Source: an uncultured Maribacter sp.
Lineage (GTDB): Bacteria; Bacteroidota; Bacteroidia; Flavobacteriales; Flavobacteriaceae
DNA length: 64,000 nt
Direction: 5' to 3'
Assembly: GCA_947498505.1 (NCBI GenBank)
Contig: CANMKG010000007.1
Span: forward strand, 62,001 to 126,000
Of the stretch, positions 31,575 through 61,138 are shown one piece after another (within the stretch, counting starts at the first letter, position 1; every line of letters begins with the position of its first letter). The notes beneath the pieces were generated by a model that saw only the letters and a program-made list of their open reading frames with translations, was not told where the DNA came from and did no database searches. Both the position numbers and the translations under genes were made by a program.

Positions 31575-31606
31575 AAAAATCCCGACTTAAAGTCGGGATT
31601 TTTTTA
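31575..31606. terminator. Bidirectional terminator at the end of the aromatic operon
   Basis: AAATCCCGACT (31577-31587) pairs with AGTCGGGATTT (31591-31601) around a three-base loop, with A and T runs on both sides. It serves the plus-strand hypothetical gene and the minus-strand aromatic operon. Confidence 0.92.
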
Positions 31607-31610
31607 ATCT

Positions 31611-32693
31611 TTATTGATTTAAAATTTTCTCTTGATGGTTAATGGATTCTTGATGAATAGCCTTAAACATTCTAAGTACAAATTCTTCACTTAGGCCCTT
31701 AGACTCTCCTTCTAAAATCATAGCGCCTAAAATCTGATTCCATCTGTTGCTTTGTAAGACTGCAACATTTTTCTCTTTTTTAAGCTTTCCAATAGCATCA
31801 GAAATTTTCATGCGCTTACCTAAAGATTCTATTAACTGAGAATCAATTACATCAATCTGAGCTCTTAGGTTACTCAATTCTTTAGTATATGCTGCCTCTG
31901 AATCGTCTTCCTTTCTAATCTTTAAATCTCTCATAATTTGAACCAATTTACTTGGTGTCACTTGTTGAGCAGCATCACTCCAGGCATTATCTGGATCAAA
32001 ATGAGTTTCAATCATTAGTCCATCAAAATTAAGATCTAAAGCTGTTTGAGAAACATCAAAAATCATTTCTCTATTTCCAGTAATATGAGATGGATCACTA
32101 ATTAATGGTAGATCAGGGAATTTATTTTGAAACTCAATTGCCAATTGCCACTCAGGTATGTTTCTATACTTTGTTTTTTCATAAGTAGAAAACCCTCTAT
32201 GAATTGCTCCTAATTTTCTAATTCCTGCAGTATATAAACGTTCAATACCACCTAACCACAGTGACAAGTCTGGGTTAATAGGGTTTTTTACTAAAACCAC
32301 TTTATCAGTACCTTCTAAAGCATCAGCAATTTCTTGCATGATAAACGGGCTTACCGCTGATCTGGCACCAATCCAAAGCAAATCAATATCGTGTTCTAAA
32401 GCCAACTCTACGTGTGCCTTATTAGCTACTTCGGTGGCGGTTTTTAGACCAGTTTCTTCTTTTACTTTTTGCAACCATTTTAGACCTAAAGCACCAACCC
32501 CTTCAAAATTTCCTGGGCGGGTTCTTGGTTTCCAGATACCAGCTCTGTAATAATTTACATCGGTATCTTTTAATTCATGTGCTATTTTAAGCACTTGCTC
32601 TTCCGTTTCCGCGCTACATGGCCCAGCTATTACTAAAGGATGATCTAGTCCTAAATCATCTAACCATGTTCTCATTTCTTTTGAATTCTCCAT
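31611..32693 (-). CDS. Bifunctional DAHP synthase / chorismate mutase (type II)
   Basis: This 360-residue fusion has an N-terminal DAHP synthase domain (about 1-260; VIAGPCSAETEEQ, RAGIWKPRTRPGNFEG, DPSHITGNR) and a C-terminal AroQ chorismate mutase (about 268-355; LRAQIDVIDSQLIESLGKRM, IGKLKK). It makes the first compound of the shikimate pathway and converts chorismate to prephenate, so the entry and branch steps are in one protein. Chorismate mutase domains in such fusions often give allosteric control by prephenate. It is the last gene of the pheA operon, four bases after tyrA. Confidence 0.94.
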   Translation of the reverse strand: MENSKEMRTWLDDLGLDHPLVIAGPCSAETEEQVLKIAHELKDTDVNYYRAGIWKPRTRPGNFEGVGALGLKWLQKVKEETGLKTATEVANKAHVELALEHDIDLLWIGARSAVSPFIMQEIADALEGTDKVVLVKNPINPDLSLWLGGIERLYTAGIRKLGAIHRGFSTYEKTKYRNIPEWQLAIEFQNKFPDLPLISDPSHITGNREMIFDVSQTALDLNFDGLMIETHFDPDNAWSDAAQQVTPSKLVQIMRDLKIRKEDDSEAAYTKELSNLRAQIDVIDSQLIESLGKRMKISDAIGKLKKEKNVAVLQSNRWNQILGAMILEGESKGLSEEFVLRMFKAIHQESINHQEKILNQ

Positions 32694-32697
32694 TGTA

Positions 32698-33567
32698 CTA
32701 ATTTTCTTTTTGCTTGTTTTGTGGTATTCCGTTTAATATTTCTTTAATCTTATTGGTATTATTCATTTCGTTATAAATGCCATCATAATCATTATTTTCA
32801 AGCATTTTTTTAAATTCGGTAAGGTTTTTTATATATCCATCTAAGGTCTCTACAACATTGTCTTTGTTCTGTTCAAAAATGGGAGTCCACATTGCTGGTG
32901 AACTTTTTGCTAAACGTACAGTGCTCTCAAAACCACTCCCTGCCATGTCAAAAATATCACGTTCATTTTTTTCTTTTTCAATTACCGTTTTTCCTAACAT
33001 AAAAGAGCTTATGTGTGATAAATGAGATACATACGCTATATGTTTGTCATGCGCTTCAGGATTCATGTATCTAATTCGCATTCCTAACTCGCGAAAAAGT
33101 TCTAAAGCTCTTTCTTGCAGTTTAAATGCTGTTTTTTCTACTTCACAAATTATATTGGTTTTACCGTCATACAATCCATATACTGCTGCTGAAGGTCCAG
33201 AAAACTCAGTACCAGAAATAGGATGACATGCTAAAAAATTTCTGCGCTTGGCATGATTTTCTAGAGCTTTACATATTTCGCCTTTTGTTGAACCAGCATC
33301 AAAAACCACACAATCATCATTAACGGCATCTAATATTTTAGGTAATTCAGCTATCATGGCGTCAACTGGAATACTAACGATTACAATATTTGCAATAGAC
33401 AATTGCTCATAGCTTGATTTTTCATCTATAATGCCTAAAACAATTGCTTCGTCTAAATTAGCGCTGCTGGCATCAATTCCGTAAATGGTGGCTTCTGGCT
33501 TCAGACGTTTAATATCTTTCACCATGGAACCTCCTATCAATCCAACTCCAATTACAAATACATTCAT
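32698..33567 (-). CDS. tyrA: Prephenate dehydrogenase TyrA
   Basis: TyrA oxidises prephenate to 4-hydroxyphenylpyruvate on the way to tyrosine. The 289-residue protein has the NAD-binding motif GVGLIGGSM (7-15), the HPISGTEFSGP active-site segment with catalytic His, and the conserved THDKHIAYVSHLSH-like block (AHDKHIAYVSHLSHISSFML). It has no chorismate mutase domain; that activity lies in the neighbouring DAHP synthase fusion. It lies in the aromatic operon, 51 bases from the aminotransferase. Confidence 0.94.
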   Translation of the reverse strand: MNVFVIGVGLIGGSMVKDIKRLKPEATIYGIDASSANLDEAIVLGIIDEKSSYEQLSIANIVIVSIPVDAMIAELPKILDAVNDDCVVFDAGSTKGEICKALENHAKRRNFLACHPISGTEFSGPSAAVYGLYDGKTNIICEVEKTAFKLQERALELFRELGMRIRYMNPEAHDKHIAYVSHLSHISSFMLGKTVIEKEKNERDIFDMAGSGFESTVRLAKSSPAMWTPIFEQNKDNVVETLDGYIKNLTEFKKMLENNDYDGIYNEMNNTNKIKEILNGIPQNKQKEN

Positions 33568-33618: not shown

Positions 33619-34764
33619 TTAAAACCTTGTTATGGCTTCTTTAATTTTTTCCTCCTTTACACAAAGAGAAAAGCGTATATATCCTTCTCCTTTATTTCCA
33701 AAAATAGTTCCTGGAGCTATAAAAATATTTTTATCGTATAAAACTTCATTTACAAATTCCTCGGAAGATAATGCTCCTTCTGGTAATTTCGCCCAAACAA
33801 ACATCCCCACTGCATTACTATCGTATGTACAGTTTAATTTATCTGCTAGTTGAAACATTAAATCTCTTCTAGTTGTATAAACCTCATTAAGGTTTTTAAA
33901 CCATTCTTCTCCACTGTTTAAAGCTTCAATTGCACCTTTTTGAACCCCATAAAACATTCCTGAGTCCATATTACTTTTCACTTTTAAAATAGCGTTTATT
34001 AAATCAGCATGGCCCATTACCATTCCAACTCTCCAGCCAGCCATGTTAAAAGTTTTACTCAATGAGTTTAACTCCAATATATTGTCATTAGAACCATTAA
34101 TAGAAAGCATACTAACTGGGTTCTCGTTTAATACAAAACTATACGGATTATCATTCACTAAAATAATATCATTGCTTTTAGCAAAGTCTACTAACCGCTC
34201 CAATTGTTGAATATTGGCTGTAGCTCCTGTAGGCATATGAGGGTATCCTGTCCACATTAATTTCACCTTAGATAAATCTTCCTTTTCTAAGGCTTGCAAA
34301 TCTGGAAACCAGTTATTTTCTTCATCTAATTGATACTCTCGAGTTACAGCTCCTACTAACTTAGTAACTGAAGAATACGTTGGATATCCAGGGTTTGGAA
34401 TTAAAACCTCGTCACCTTCATTCAAAAAAGCCATGCTTATATGCATGATTCCTTCTTTTGAACCCATTAATGGTAATATCTCATTCACAGGATTTAGAGA
34501 AACGTTATACTTTAACTTATAAAAATTCGCAATTGCTTCTCTTAATTCTGGTAAACCCTGATAACTTTGATATTGATGTGCGCCGACATCCATTACGGCT
34601 TGTTTAATTGCTTCGATTACAGTTTCAGAAGGAGCCAAATCTGGACTACCAATTCCCATATTAATAATTGGTTTACCTTCCGCAACTAAACCTCTTACCT
34701 CTCTCAATTTTTTTGAGAAGTAATATTCTTCAACTGTTTTTAATCTATCAGCCGTAGTAATCAT
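33619..34764 (-). CDS. PLP-dependent aminotransferase of the aromatic operon
   Basis: This is a class I/II fold-type I aminotransferase of 381 residues. The PLP lysine is Lys237 in NSLSKTFNMAGWRVG. The conserved NPGYPTY (124-130), ND-PY (NDNPYSF, 204-210) and C-terminal IRFSL motif are present. The operon has pheA and tyrA on either side, so it most likely converts phenylpyruvate and 4-hydroxyphenylpyruvate to Phe and Tyr, though similar proteins act on other 2-oxo acids. Its start overlaps the pheA stop by four bases. Confidence 0.88.
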   Translation of the reverse strand: MITTADRLKTVEEYYFSKKLREVRGLVAEGKPIINMGIGSPDLAPSETVIEAIKQAVMDVGAHQYQSYQGLPELREAIANFYKLKYNVSLNPVNEILPLMGSKEGIMHISMAFLNEGDEVLIPNPGYPTYSSVTKLVGAVTREYQLDEENNWFPDLQALEKEDLSKVKLMWTGYPHMPTGATANIQQLERLVDFAKSNDIILVNDNPYSFVLNENPVSMLSINGSNDNILELNSLSKTFNMAGWRVGMVMGHADLINAILKVKSNMDSGMFYGVQKGAIEALNSGEEWFKNLNEVYTTRRDLMFQLADKLNCTYDSNAVGMFVWAKLPEGALSSEEFVNEVLYDKNIFIAPGTIFGNKGEGYIRFSLCVKEEKIKEAITRF

Positions 34765-35588
34765 ATTCTAGCATTTTTATACTCTCCTAAAACCTTAAAA
34801 TCTTCTGACATAATACTCAAAAGAGATTTCGCTTTTGCAAAATTTTCGTAATTCTCAAAAGTAACATCCACAAAAAACGCATACTTCCAAGGCTTTTCAA
34901 TTATGGGTAATGACTGAATTTTGGTTAAATTTAAATTACAGTCACTCATAACATTTAAAACCGTAGCAAGACTCCCTCTTTTATGATCTGTTATAAACCT
35001 AATTGACGCCTTATTAATTTCTTCTTTAGGCAACTCCTTATTTACCGTTTTCACGATAATAAATCTTGTTGAGTTGTTTTTAATAGTTTGTATGTCTGAG
35101 GCAATAATATCCAAATTGTACAAATCCGCTGCAACTTTAGGTGCTATTGCCGCAATATTTTTTAATTGTTTTTCCTGAATTTGTTTTGCAGTTTCTGCAG
35201 TATCCACATCTTCAACCATTTTTATATGAGGATAGCCTCTTAAAAACTCTTTACATTGCAGTAGTGCCATGGGGTGCGACCTCACCTCATCAATATCCTC
35301 GATTTTTTGCCCTTTTAACACCATTAAGTTATGATGAATATTTAGGTAATGCTCTCCAATTATATGCAGGTTATTATGATAAATTAATGCGTAATTTGGA
35401 ATAATGGATCCTGCAATAGAATTCTCAATTGCCATTATACCTTTGTCAGCAGATTTATTTAAGAGTTTATCCACCAGGATATCAAAAGATAAACATTCCA
35501 CTAAATCCACTTCATTACCAAAATAGTCGTTTGCTACTTGATGATGGTTTGATCCTTTTATTCCCTGTATTGCTAATTTTAAGCTCAT
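34761..35588 (-). CDS. pheA: Prephenate dehydratase PheA with ACT domain
   Basis: PheA converts prephenate to phenylpyruvate. The 275-residue monofunctional protein has a dehydratase domain (about 1-180) with the catalytic motif NNSTRF (T174-R-F176), and a C-terminal ACT domain (about 193-275). In that ACT domain the Phe-binding ESRP motif of other prephenate dehydratases is QSLP (225-228), so feedback inhibition by Phe may be weak or different. It is the first gene of the operon. The leader peptide and terminator at 35645-35772 lie directly upstream and give it a pheL-like control. Confidence 0.95.
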   Translation of the reverse strand: MSLKLAIQGIKGSNHHQVANDYFGNEVDLVECLSFDILVDKLLNKSADKGIMAIENSIAGSIIPNYALIYHNNLHIIGEHYLNIHHNLMVLKGQKIEDIDEVRSHPMALLQCKEFLRGYPHIKMVEDVDTAETAKQIQEKQLKNIAAIAPKVAADLYNLDIIASDIQTIKNNSTRFIIVKTVNKELPKEEINKASIRFITDHKRGSLATVLNVMSDCNLNLTKIQSLPIIEKPWKYAFFVDVTFENYENFAKAKSLLSIMSEDFKVLGEYKNARI

Positions 35589-35644: not shown

Positions 35645-35675
35645 AAAAAAAAAGTTCCGATTTTCTCGGAACTTT
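35645..35675 (-). terminator. Attenuator terminator of the pheA operon
   Basis: On the minus strand AAAGTTCCGA (35675-35666) pairs perfectly with TCGGAACTTT (35660-35651) across a five-base loop and is followed by a T run. The nine consecutive Ts span 35653-35645. It lies 57-87 bases before pheA and 26 bases after the leader-ORF stop. The 5' arm can instead pair with the leader: AGTTCCG (35673-35667) with CGGGACT (35714-35708), giving seven pairs including one G-U. That is an antiterminator exclusive with the terminator. Confidence 0.88.
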
Positions 35676-35700
35676 ACTCTAATTATATTTTTAAAATATG

Positions 35701-35772
35701 CTAGAACAGTCCCGTACCTCTTTTAAAAAAGAAGTAAAAAGTAAAACCGTTCCAGAAATATTGTTTTGTCAT
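35701..35772 (-). CDS. Phe/Tyr-rich leader peptide of the pheA operon (pheL-like)
   Basis: A 23-codon ORF from ATG at 35772 to TAG at 35701. Ten of 23 residues are aromatic: Phe at 6, 10, 12, 14, 15, 16 and 23, Tyr at 5 and 13, Trp at 7. The core reads FTFYFFF. It is followed by the terminator at 35645-35675. Codons 7-9 (GAACGGT) can pair with codons 21-23 (ACTGTTC) as the 1:2 stem. Part of the latter can pair with the terminator 5' arm as the 2:3 antiterminator. Stalling at scarce Phe-tRNA would free segment 2 and allow read-through. This is the enterobacterial pheL design. An A-rich stretch precedes the ATG, as usual for this phylum. Confidence 0.88.
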   Translation of the reverse strand: MTKQYFWNGFTFYFFFKRGTGLF

Positions 35773-35862
35773 TTTTTATAAAAACTTGGGCTAATGTACT
35801 AATTAAATTTAAATACTGCTTAATAGCTCCATTTTTTTTCATTTTTTTTAGCGTTAGTTATA

Positions 35863-35944: not shown

Positions 35945-35990
35945 GTTTTCAAACTGTACTTAAACCTTCTTGTTATTAAAATTCCTTTGC

Positions 35991-36887
35991 ATGTCTATAG
36001 TAGTTTCTAATATTTCTAAAACTTTTAGCTCGCAAAAAGCTCTTGATAATATTTCATTTTCCATAAAACCAGGGGAAATTGTTGGCTTTCTTGGTCCAAA
36101 TGGAGCGGGAAAATCCACAATGATGAAAATATTAACAACATATTATACTGCTAGCAAAGGTAACGCCACAGTAAACAATTTTGATGTGTTGTCCGCTCCA
36201 AAAGATGTTCAAAAAAGTATTGGATACCTACCGGAACACAATCCTCTGTATTTAGATATGTATGTTAAAGAATATTTACAATTTAACGCCAACGTATACA
36301 GAGTAAGGGTTTCTAGAATTAATGAGGTAATATTACAAACTGGACTAAAGCCTGAATGTCATAAAAAGATTGGGCAACTCTCTAAAGGTTACAGACAACG
36401 TGTTGGACTAGCTGCAGCTTTATTACACAATCCTGAAGTTTTAATTTTAGATGAGCCTACAACGGGATTAGACCCTAATCAACTTATTGAAATAAGAAAT
36501 TTAATTCGAGAGATAGGTGAAGAAAAAACAATTTTGCTTTCAACACATATCATGAAGGAAGTTGAGGCTATTTGTGACAGGGTAATTATTATCAACAAAG
36601 GGGTTTTAGTGGCAGACAAAAAGCTTTCCGATTTAAGAACGGAATCTCATCAAATAATTGAAGTAGAATTTGATTACAGAGTAGAAGAGGCTTTTTTGAA
36701 AAAATTACCTCAAGTAACCCATGTAAAAAACACTGGTGGATTTCATTATGAAATCACATGTGATACTCAAAAAGATATGCGACCCGTTATTTTTGACTTC
36801 GCCCATGACAATCAATTAAAAACGTTACAATTGAGTCGAAAAAACAAAAACCTTGAAAATTTGTTTACCGAACTTACTGCTTCTTAA
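35991..36887 (+). CDS. gldA: Gliding motility ABC transporter ATP-binding protein GldA
   Basis: GldA is the ATPase of the GldA-GldF-GldG ABC transporter implicated in flavobacterial gliding. From the ATG at 35991 it has 298 residues starting MSIVVSNISKTFSSQKALDNI. The Walker A is GPNGAGKST (35-43). The signature is LSKGYRQR, the Walker B is LILDEPTTGLD, and the H-loop is STHIMKEVEAI. The frame is open from 35970, but MLLKFLC is unlike the family. As in F. johnsoniae, gldF and gldG are not beside it. Its 3' end overlaps the convergent gene by four bases. Confidence 0.93.
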   Translation: MSIVVSNISKTFSSQKALDNISFSIKPGEIVGFLGPNGAGKSTMMKILTTYYTASKGNATVNNFDVLSAPKDVQKSIGYLPEHNPLYLDMYVKEYLQFNANVYRVRVSRINEVILQTGLKPECHKKIGQLSKGYRQRVGLAAALLHNPEVLILDEPTTGLDPNQLIEIRNLIREIGEEKTILLSTHIMKEVEAICDRVIIINKGVLVADKKLSDLRTESHQIIEVEFDYRVEEAFLKKLPQVTHVKNTGGFHYEITCDTQKDMRPVIFDFAHDNQLKTLQLSRKNKNLENLFTELTAS

Positions 36888-46311: not shown

Positions 46312-46405
46312 TATTAAGCCTTAACCAATTTAAAATTATAGCTACCAACAAAAATTATAGTATTAAATATCAAGTAGGAGAAAGTAAGACTGTTGTCCTT
46401 TTTTG

Positions 46406-46510
46406 GTTATCTGCCATATTTTGCAAATATGGTAGAACGTAGCACCTTCTTTACTAATAAAGGGTTGCTAAGGTTTCTTAGGGTCTAATCCCTCCACCTT
46501 TCTTGATAAC
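46406..46510 (-). ncRNA. SAM-I (S-box) riboswitch upstream of metH
   Basis: On the minus strand the core GGTGGAGGGATTAGACCC is followed by AGAAACCTTAGCAACC and GGTGCTA, which are the conserved S-box blocks. The P1 helix closes with GATAAC (46510-46505) and GTTATC (46411-46406). The P4 arm is the hairpin CCATATT...AATATGG (46414-46432). It lies 95 bases before metH1. High SAM should lower expression of the metH-metF unit. No clear terminator follows it, so control may be at translation. Confidence 0.93.
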
Positions 46511-46524
46511 AATTACAAAATTCT

Positions 46525-59502: not shown

Positions 59503-59509
59503 TTGTTTT

Positions 59510-59622
59510 GTTATCTGCCTAAAAAACCAATTAAGGTTCTCGGTAGAATTTAGCACCTTCTTTGACAGACAAAGGGTTGCTAAGGTTTCACAGGGTCTAA
59601 TCCCTCCACCTTTCTTGATAAC
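59510..59622 (-). ncRNA. SAM-I (S-box) riboswitch upstream of metY
   Basis: On the minus strand the blocks GGTGGAGGGATTAGACCC, TGTGAAACCTTAGCAACC and GGTGCTAAATTC match the S-box consensus and nearly repeat the metH copy. P1 closes with GATAAC (59622-59617) and GTTATC (59515-59510). P4 is an AACC-TTAATT-GGTT hairpin. It controls metY, the MetX-aspartokinase-homoserine dehydrogenase fusion and probably metZ. It therefore makes an aspartokinase SAM-responsive. Confidence 0.94.
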
Positions 59623-59652
59623 TATTCAATACGTGTTTGAACTTTTGAACTG

Positions 59653-61075: not shown

Positions 61076-61077
61076 AA

Positions 61078-61127
61078 CATCTGTTTTAGCATTTTTGGAG
61101 GTTGCAAGCAGTCAAATCTTTCCTCAT
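61078..61127 (-). ncRNA. SAM-II (SAM-alpha) type riboswitch upstream of metK
   Basis: On the minus strand the blocks GATTTGACTG, CTTGCAACCTC and AAAAATGCTAAAACAG match the SAM-II consensus (GAUUUAACCG, UUGCA, GCUAAA). P1 is GAGG (61125-61122) with CCTC (61101-61098). The pseudoknot can form between CTG (61111-61109) in the loop and CAG (61083-61081) in the 3' tail, with GCA and TGC also complementary, as in the SAM-II structure. It lies about 80 bases before the metK ATG. It would lower metK expression when SAM is high. Confidence 0.85.
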
Positions 61128-61138
61128 TATTGTGAATG

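Follow-up and report, generated by a model that had tools for sequence, protein, structure and literature searches.

A putative attenuator with clustered Phe, Tyr and often Trp codons before the pheA operon of Maribacter and its relatives

What does a very short reading frame, crowded with aromatic codons and followed by a hairpin with a run of T, do immediately before pheA in an uncultured Maribacter sp.? We analyzed this locus in a window of 64,000 nt, this being the whole stretch of DNA under study, and compared it with the regions upstream of pheA in related genomes. An initial annotation had proposed attenuation of the pheL kind, and the comparison supported this reading. We consider it highly likely that the element controls the operon behind it by ribosome-mediated transcription attenuation, with charged tRNA-Phe and tRNA-Tyr, and perhaps tRNA-Trp, as the signals it reads; transcription of the operon very probably depends on the progress of the ribosome along the leader. 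Judged by its sequence, this is a real system of a known attenuator kind with a forerunner in print from Flavobacterium psychrophilum, and the promoter-like box, the aromatic ORF, the terminator and the mutually exclusive predicted pairings are kept through wide sequence change.

The leader, the terminator and the operon in the window

The coordinates of all elements are collected in Table 1. The leader peptide, MTKQYFWNGFTFYFFFKRGTGLF, is encoded on the minus strand from an ATG at 35772 to a TAG at 35703-35701, and it contains seven Phe, two Tyr and one Trp, confirming both the position and the composition of the 23-codon frame first annotated. On either strand of the 64-kb window it was the sole ATG-started ORF of 12-40 amino acids with at least seven aromatics per ten residues, and a terminator was present behind it; 20 dinucleotide shuffles of the window gave a mean of 0.45 such aromatic-rich ORFs and none with a terminator. 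When the genome itself was searched for a second copy of the leader, the only match was the leader itself. The terminator hairpin, AAAGTTCCGA/TCGGAACTTT (35675-35651), has 10 bp and a loop of 5, and its T-run ends at 35645. The hairpin had been described correctly, while the distances around it needed correction: the stop codon is separated from the terminator by 25 nt rather than 26, and the T-run from the pheA ATG (35588) by 56 nt rather than 57.

The pairing segments proposed at the outset, GAACGGT with ACTGTTC (35710-35704) and CGGGACT with AGTTCCG (35673-35667), were as described, and the latter pairing, of strand 2 with strand 3, includes one G-U pair. The extent of the 1:2 pairing had been understated: folding of the leader alone gave 27 pairs between 35762 and 35695, with the aromatic codon run as the 5' arm. 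When the fold was extended through strand 3, the outer five pairs of this hairpin were replaced by a small A/T hairpin.

The Pfam domains agreed with the gene content claimed for the operon, i.e., pheA, an aminotransferase, tyrA and DAHP synthase/chorismate mutase. The aminotransferase gene overlaps the end of pheA, and the gaps after it measure 51 and 4 nt; weak terminator-like matches were also detected within the operon, such as a 5-bp one in the 51-nt gap. Upstream of the leader, TACATTAG resembles a promoter -7 element, for which the Bacteroidota type is TAnnTTTG. The upstream neighbor, an ORF at 35970-36887 that is presumably an ABC-transporter ATPase, judging by its motifs, is divergent from the leader and is therefore not the gene that the terminator at 35675-35645 closes. 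The RNA that this putative terminator ends should start in the gap between the leader and the divergent ORF.

Table 1. Positions of the leader, its predicted RNA elements and the operon within the 64,000-nt window
Feature	Position	Strand	Basis or remark
TACATTAG, promoter -7-like element	35791..35798	-	19-26 nt before leader ATG
Leader ORF, peptide MTKQYFWNGFTFYFFFKRGTGLF	35701..35772	-	direct reading; conservation in relatives
Strand 1, 5' arm of the long 1:2 hairpin	35728..35762	-	MFE pairs; includes GAACGGT, 35752-35746
Control codons Tyr5 to Phe16	35725..35760	-	6 Phe, 2 Tyr and 1 Trp in 12 codons
3' arm of the 1:2 hairpin	35695..35723	-	contains strand 2 core CGGGACT, 35714-35708
Strand 2, putative antiterminator 5' half	35708..35714	-	arm-swap tests; complementarity to strand 3
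Strand 3, terminator 5' arm	35666..35675	-	35673-35667 doubles as antiterminator 3' half
Strand 4 and T-run, putative intrinsic terminator	35645..35660	-	strand 4 is 35660-35651; T-run to 35645
pheA, prephenate dehydratase	34761..35588	-	PF00800
Class I/II aminotransferase, overlaps pheA end	33619..34764	-	PF00155
tyrA, prephenate dehydrogenase	32698..33567	-	PF02153, PF20463
DAHP synthase fused to chorismate mutase	31611..32693	-	PF00793, PF01817
13-bp terminator-like hairpin after the last gene	31575..31603		scored on both strands

Distribution of the leader and terminator

Near relatives were collected by a scan of genome contigs, in which 139 PheA relatives were found and the best 80 were kept. 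A homologous aromatic-rich leader was present upstream of pheA in all 80 of these, and the peptide was nearly constant among close relatives. The order pheA-aminotransferase-tyrA-DAHP synthase was found in 75 of the same 80 (best 80 of 139), the remaining five being shorter pieces; among 70 further loci with less flanking sequence, pheA-aminotransferase-tyrA was found in 50, and the order varied outside the family. The family set, which overlaps with that of the near relatives, was built from 199 genomes (198 genera), of which 186 gave a PheA match; the best 150 (149 genera) were read upstream, the other 36 being the most diverged matches. By script, 148 of these 150 genomes (best 150 of 186) had both a leader and a terminator upstream of pheA. 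This survey of Flavobacteriaceae was the check suggested at the outset, and the short Phe/Tyr-rich ORF was conserved in both sets.

The start codon was ATG in 142 of the 148 leaders, and the aromatic density reached at least six per ten residues in all 148 and at least seven in 146. Peptides were highly divergent across genera, as MTRNFFWNGFYFYFFFKRSAGLL, MTVHYTYFNNWFYFFFSKRNEALYV and MINLIRWNTFFYFYFYFRDRNGSVM illustrate, and outside the ORF and the terminator the alignments showed an A/T-rich spacer of low conservation. Every one of the 148 leaders contained Tyr codons, and 99 contained Trp codons, and therefore the leader should read Tyr, and perhaps Trp, besides Phe; the earlier view of a Phe-reading leader stands for Phe, though not for Phe alone. 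The two family genomes that the script did not count were of different kinds. At locus L179, inspection by eye revealed strand 2 and the terminator farther upstream, where a tandem array of a 110-bp unit has displaced them, and the ORF is clipped by the end of the stretch; locus L209 was the one genome of 150 with no leader and terminator. The array at L179 (positions 78-494) consists of 3.8 copies of the unit, lies between the terminator and pheA, and carries a G+C-rich hairpin in each unit. Leader and terminator were also present at locus L250, whose genome is among the 36 most diverged matches, and at all seven other loci from the family, two of which come from the same genomes as L127 and L146.

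In 140 of 148 genomes, a promoter-like box of the form TAnnTTnG was located 60 to 9 nt ahead of the leader, as compared with a mean of 19.6 (sd 4.2) in mononucleotide shuffles. The form TAnnTTAG was present, about 16-32 nt before the leader ATG, in 129 of 148 (shuffled 6.7) across loci L081-L230, and the form TAnnTTTG in 14 of 148 (shuffled 7.5).

For 42 loci from beyond the family, the cut-off was relaxed to five aromatics in ten. Leader and terminator were found in 20 of them, from eleven other families by their genome labels, two of which (L264 and L270) are labeled as another class, and the element extends beyond a single flavobacterial lineage. Ten PheA loci belong to the same class but to other orders, and nine of these carried both parts. 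At the same cut-off, 22 of the 42 loci showed no leader with terminator, including L255-L259, with PheA about 31-32% identical, then L243 and L260, and L272-L280 with 33-38% identity. The other six of the 22 are from genomes of about 600 kb in the same order (L246, L248, L249 and L252-L254), which have kept pheA and lack a leader with terminator, as if the regulation had been lost in reduction. A PheA search in the same order gave no match in 27 of 59 genomes.

Exclusive pairings and the position of the ribosome

The proposed mechanism is as follows. When charged Phe and Tyr tRNA is ample, the ribosome would reach the stop codon and cover strand 2, and the 3:4 terminator would form upstream of pheA. 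A shortage would instead stall the ribosome within the aromatic run, opening the 1:2 hairpin; strand 2, which starts some 10-11 nt past the last aromatic codon, could then pair with strand 3 while strand 4 was still to be transcribed, and RNA polymerase would continue through all four genes of the operon, from pheA to DAHP synthase/chorismate mutase. In an untranslated leader, the 1:2 hairpin would be expected to hold strand 2, and transcription would end there too, this being the least supported step.

Strand 2 and the terminator 5' arm changed jointly across loci, giving CGGGACT:AGTCCCG, CGAGAC:GTCTCG, CGGAAC:GTTCCG, CAGGACT:AGTCCTG, CGGGAT:ATCCCG and ATGAGACT:AGTCTCGT, and at least six contiguous 2:3 pairs were present in 140 of 148 loci. 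When arms were swapped between the 148 loci, the mean pairing score fell from 17.04 to 14.31 (sd 0.20), and the highest of 5000 permutations reached 15.10, although relatedness of the loci inflates this and every other permutation figure given here. The 52 loci outside two uniform groups, A1 (a 40-locus alignment) and A2, scored 16.92 with their own arms and 13.94 with swapped ones (z 8.7; 0 of 5000 as high). Likewise, 18 of the 20 leader loci from other families, L239 and L251 being left out, scored 18.67 against 13.27 (sd 0.76; highest of 5000, 16.7). Within the uniform groups, the pairing varies too little and the test therefore has little power: A1 gave 18.27 against 17.91 (63 of 5000 as high) and A2 16.27 against 16.17 (342 of 5000). 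Pair counts, which cover A1, did not place its 2:3 pairs above shuffles (118 of 500 shuffles reached the real value for cells paired, and 209 of 500 did so for two-sided changes); they are thus uninformative for 2:3, and this is why swap tests were used. The argument for 2:3 is carried by the 52 diverse loci and the 18 from other families, and across these sequences a predicted antiterminator that excludes the terminator is kept by compensatory change.

The 1:2 hairpin also appeared to be under constraint. In groups with differing peptides, the folds paired the aromatic codon run, as 5' arm, with the later codons through the stop, as 3' arm. Compared with 60 synonymous-codon redraws per leader, the real hairpin was predicted to be more stable (mean z -1.95), with z below -1 in 123 of 148 leaders and above 0 in six. 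In A1, 95.9% of cells were paired, against 93.7% (sd 0.5) in shuffles (0 of 500 as high) and at most 62.4% in slid versions, while two of five measures were weaker, being equaled or exceeded by 70 and 23 of 500 shuffles; by these pair counts on A1, the predicted hairpin is conserved. Leaders of the A2 type pair the front YTY codons with the back LYV-stop codons, which would explain why the C-terminus is kept within groups and not between them. On A2, RNAalifold recovered the terminator and, of the 1:2 hairpin, no more than its inner part; single folds showed a longer 1:2 hairpin (among the 29 of 148 folds listed). Hence, of the compensatory changes that the initial annotation had looked for in the stems, those in 2:3 were found across loci and those in 1:2 within A1, with 2:3 too invariant inside the uniform groups.

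The spacing of these elements suited the proposed role of the ribosome. In 148 leaders, strand 2 started at a median distance of 11 nt (IQR 10-11) from the final aromatic codon of the cluster, and therefore a ribosome stalled there would just leave strand 2 free. The ribosome leading edge usually lies 13 nt from the first A-site base; the footprint model assumed this value and a transcript start at 35786, and both the distance and the footprint figures use the last cluster codon located before strand 2. For the leader in the window, the modeled probability of 2:3 was 0.79-0.98 with codons 3-16 in the A site, 0.42 at codon 17, 0.00 from codon 18 to the stop, and 0.06 with no ribosome. The expectation that stalling at codons 10-16 would favor the antiterminator was thus borne out in the model, though not as limits, as codons 3-16 all do so. 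With the ribosome at the last aromatic codon, this probability exceeded 0.5 for 144 of the 148 leaders, and for none of them once it had moved three codons further, which restates the distance; in all 148 the last permissive codon lay within -1 to +2 codons of that aromatic codon, which is not independent of the distance either. Aromatic codons took up 1352 of 2270 permissive positions versus 88 of 1082 others. In the model, stalling frees strand 2 and completion of the leader covers it.

Two results of the model bear on how such control could work. With no ribosome, at equilibrium, the probability of 2:3 was below 0.2 in 36 of the 148 leaders and at least 0.5 in 91, and therefore 1:2 as a protector of strand 2 is not general in the model. 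For the full RNA, the terminator was favored at every ribosome position (probability of 3:4 0.93-0.97; 3:4 at -13.0 against 2:3 at -7.6 kcal/mol), so antitermination would have to be kinetic, i.e., a matter of timing.

The near constancy of the peptide among close relatives could also mean that the nascent chain arrests the ribosome on a free amino acid, as in TnaC, rather than codon-wise by shortage of tRNA. However, arrest peptides are known to require fixed residues, and across genera it is the aromatic richness and the distance to strand 2 that are kept, while residue order and C-terminus vary. Moreover, 15 of the 148 leaders (L119, L124, L127, L145, L146, L169, L186, L197, L204, L210, L215, L221, L223, L224 and L225) have their stop codon before or within strand 2; strand 2 nevertheless starts 10-13 nt after the cluster in 11 of them, and at 5, 5, 7 and 14 nt in the other four. 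These early-stop leaders are a natural separation of the constraint on the peptide from that on the RNA, and we regard peptide arrest as quite improbable. They likewise weigh against a small protein with its own function, followed by a plain terminator of a short RNA. Such a protein would agree with a small ORF conserved over a long span, but strand 2 mostly stays in place after the early stops, the hairpin is more stable than synonymous redraws, and peptides from other families share little beyond their aromatic content, making this explanation very improbable indeed. A metabolite-binding riboswitch or a T-box in control of the terminator, which would likewise combine a terminator with an alternative pairing, is hardly credible, given that no Rfam family reached its gathering score at the leader, even in a relaxed search, and that the spacer outside the ORF and terminator is A/T-rich and poorly conserved. 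Attenuation by codon-wise reading of charged aromatic tRNA is the reading we retain.

Known systems and other leaders in the genome

The element shares with the enterobacterial pheL-pheA attenuator (RF01859, Phe_leader) a Phe-rich leader, a terminator before pheA and the 1:2, 2:3 and 3:4 pairings. The control codons of pheL are Phe codons. Unlike pheL, the leader described here mixes Phe, Tyr and often Trp codons, and the operon behind it serves Phe and Tyr jointly and includes DAHP synthase. No Rfam family scored above its cut-off at the leader; RF01859 gave a full-length match of 24.2 bits (E 0.068; gathering score 55), and sub-threshold matches in 7 of 20 relatives, the best at 33 bits. Unrelated families scored similarly, with SpF25 at 24.6 bits in the window and MicC in two relatives, and the RF01859 match is therefore weak. 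The likeness to pheL is probably convergent.

In F. psychrophilum, signs of leader-peptide attenuation before amino-acid operons have been reported, and a pheA 5' element, conserved in other genera and with no Rfam hit, is listed (PMC9723704); it concerns the same gene in the same bacterial family as our leader, and the accessible part of that paper gives neither the anatomy of the element nor which operons show the signs of attenuation. The initial remark that no description was known from this lineage thus holds for the anatomy of the system, for which no account was found in the literature, and not for the pheA element as such, on which that paper touches. In the accessible parts of other papers, leader-like short ORFs are mentioned in B. 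thetaiotaomicron (PMC7366714), a pheA motif of Actinobacteria is listed (PMC2864571), and leader genes in Bacteroidetes are counted by distance, with pheA not among them, in a paper that cites a 2010 comparative attenuation study by Lopatovskaya et al. (PMC4833913); further background is found in the available portions of PMC8305728 and PMC12691694. Our literature search, whose coverage left subscription journals mostly outside, returned no description of this pheA leader anatomy, nor a paper settling whether Bacteroidota couple transcription and translation. The 2010 work of Lopatovskaya et al. is said to be a comparative study of attenuation and may bear on the pheA leader.

Ribosome-mediated attenuation needs the leading ribosome to keep pace with RNA polymerase, and a conserved pheA attenuator would make transcription-translation coupling in flavobacteria directly measurable. 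More tentatively, and with somewhat more doubt than confidence, the leader may be ancestral, sense all three aromatic amino acids and have spread through the class; with Phe, Tyr and Trp codons mixed in a single permissive stretch, scarcity of any charged aromatic tRNA would open the entry enzyme, DAHP synthase, and both branches together, the ribosome trailing RNA polymerase closely in these bacteria. If so, its upkeep in many families would mean that the ribosome follows the polymerase closely enough for control. The anatomy also offers a search rule for amino-acid leaders in a phylum with few annotated: a codon cluster, a strand 2 about 11 nt further on, and a terminator.

The trp, his and ilv leader-peptide attenuators follow the same logic with codons and operons that differ from those of the pheA leader, and candidates for all three were found in the Maribacter genome itself. 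A His-rich leader, MHHHFHTGSQAR, precedes hisG on the minus strand of its locus (L281), a Trp-rich one, MRNKGINTWWWSNLRKTS, precedes a trpE homologue (L282:1317-1373), and an Ile/Val-rich one, MKVKSILINVIVIVSSQR, precedes ilvD (L286:1087-1143), each being followed by a hairpin and T-run. Scans of the individual loci gave one match for his and two other, weaker matches for trp; the ilv scan gave six others elsewhere, and the candidate ilv leader therefore rests on its place and hairpin. The scan for a thr leader gave no match in the stretch examined, which probably stops short of the gene start. In the window itself, two SAM (S-box) riboswitches and one SAM-II riboswitch lie within 15 kb on the minus strand (46404-46512, 59508-59624 and 61076-61131), and each precedes minus-strand ORFs.
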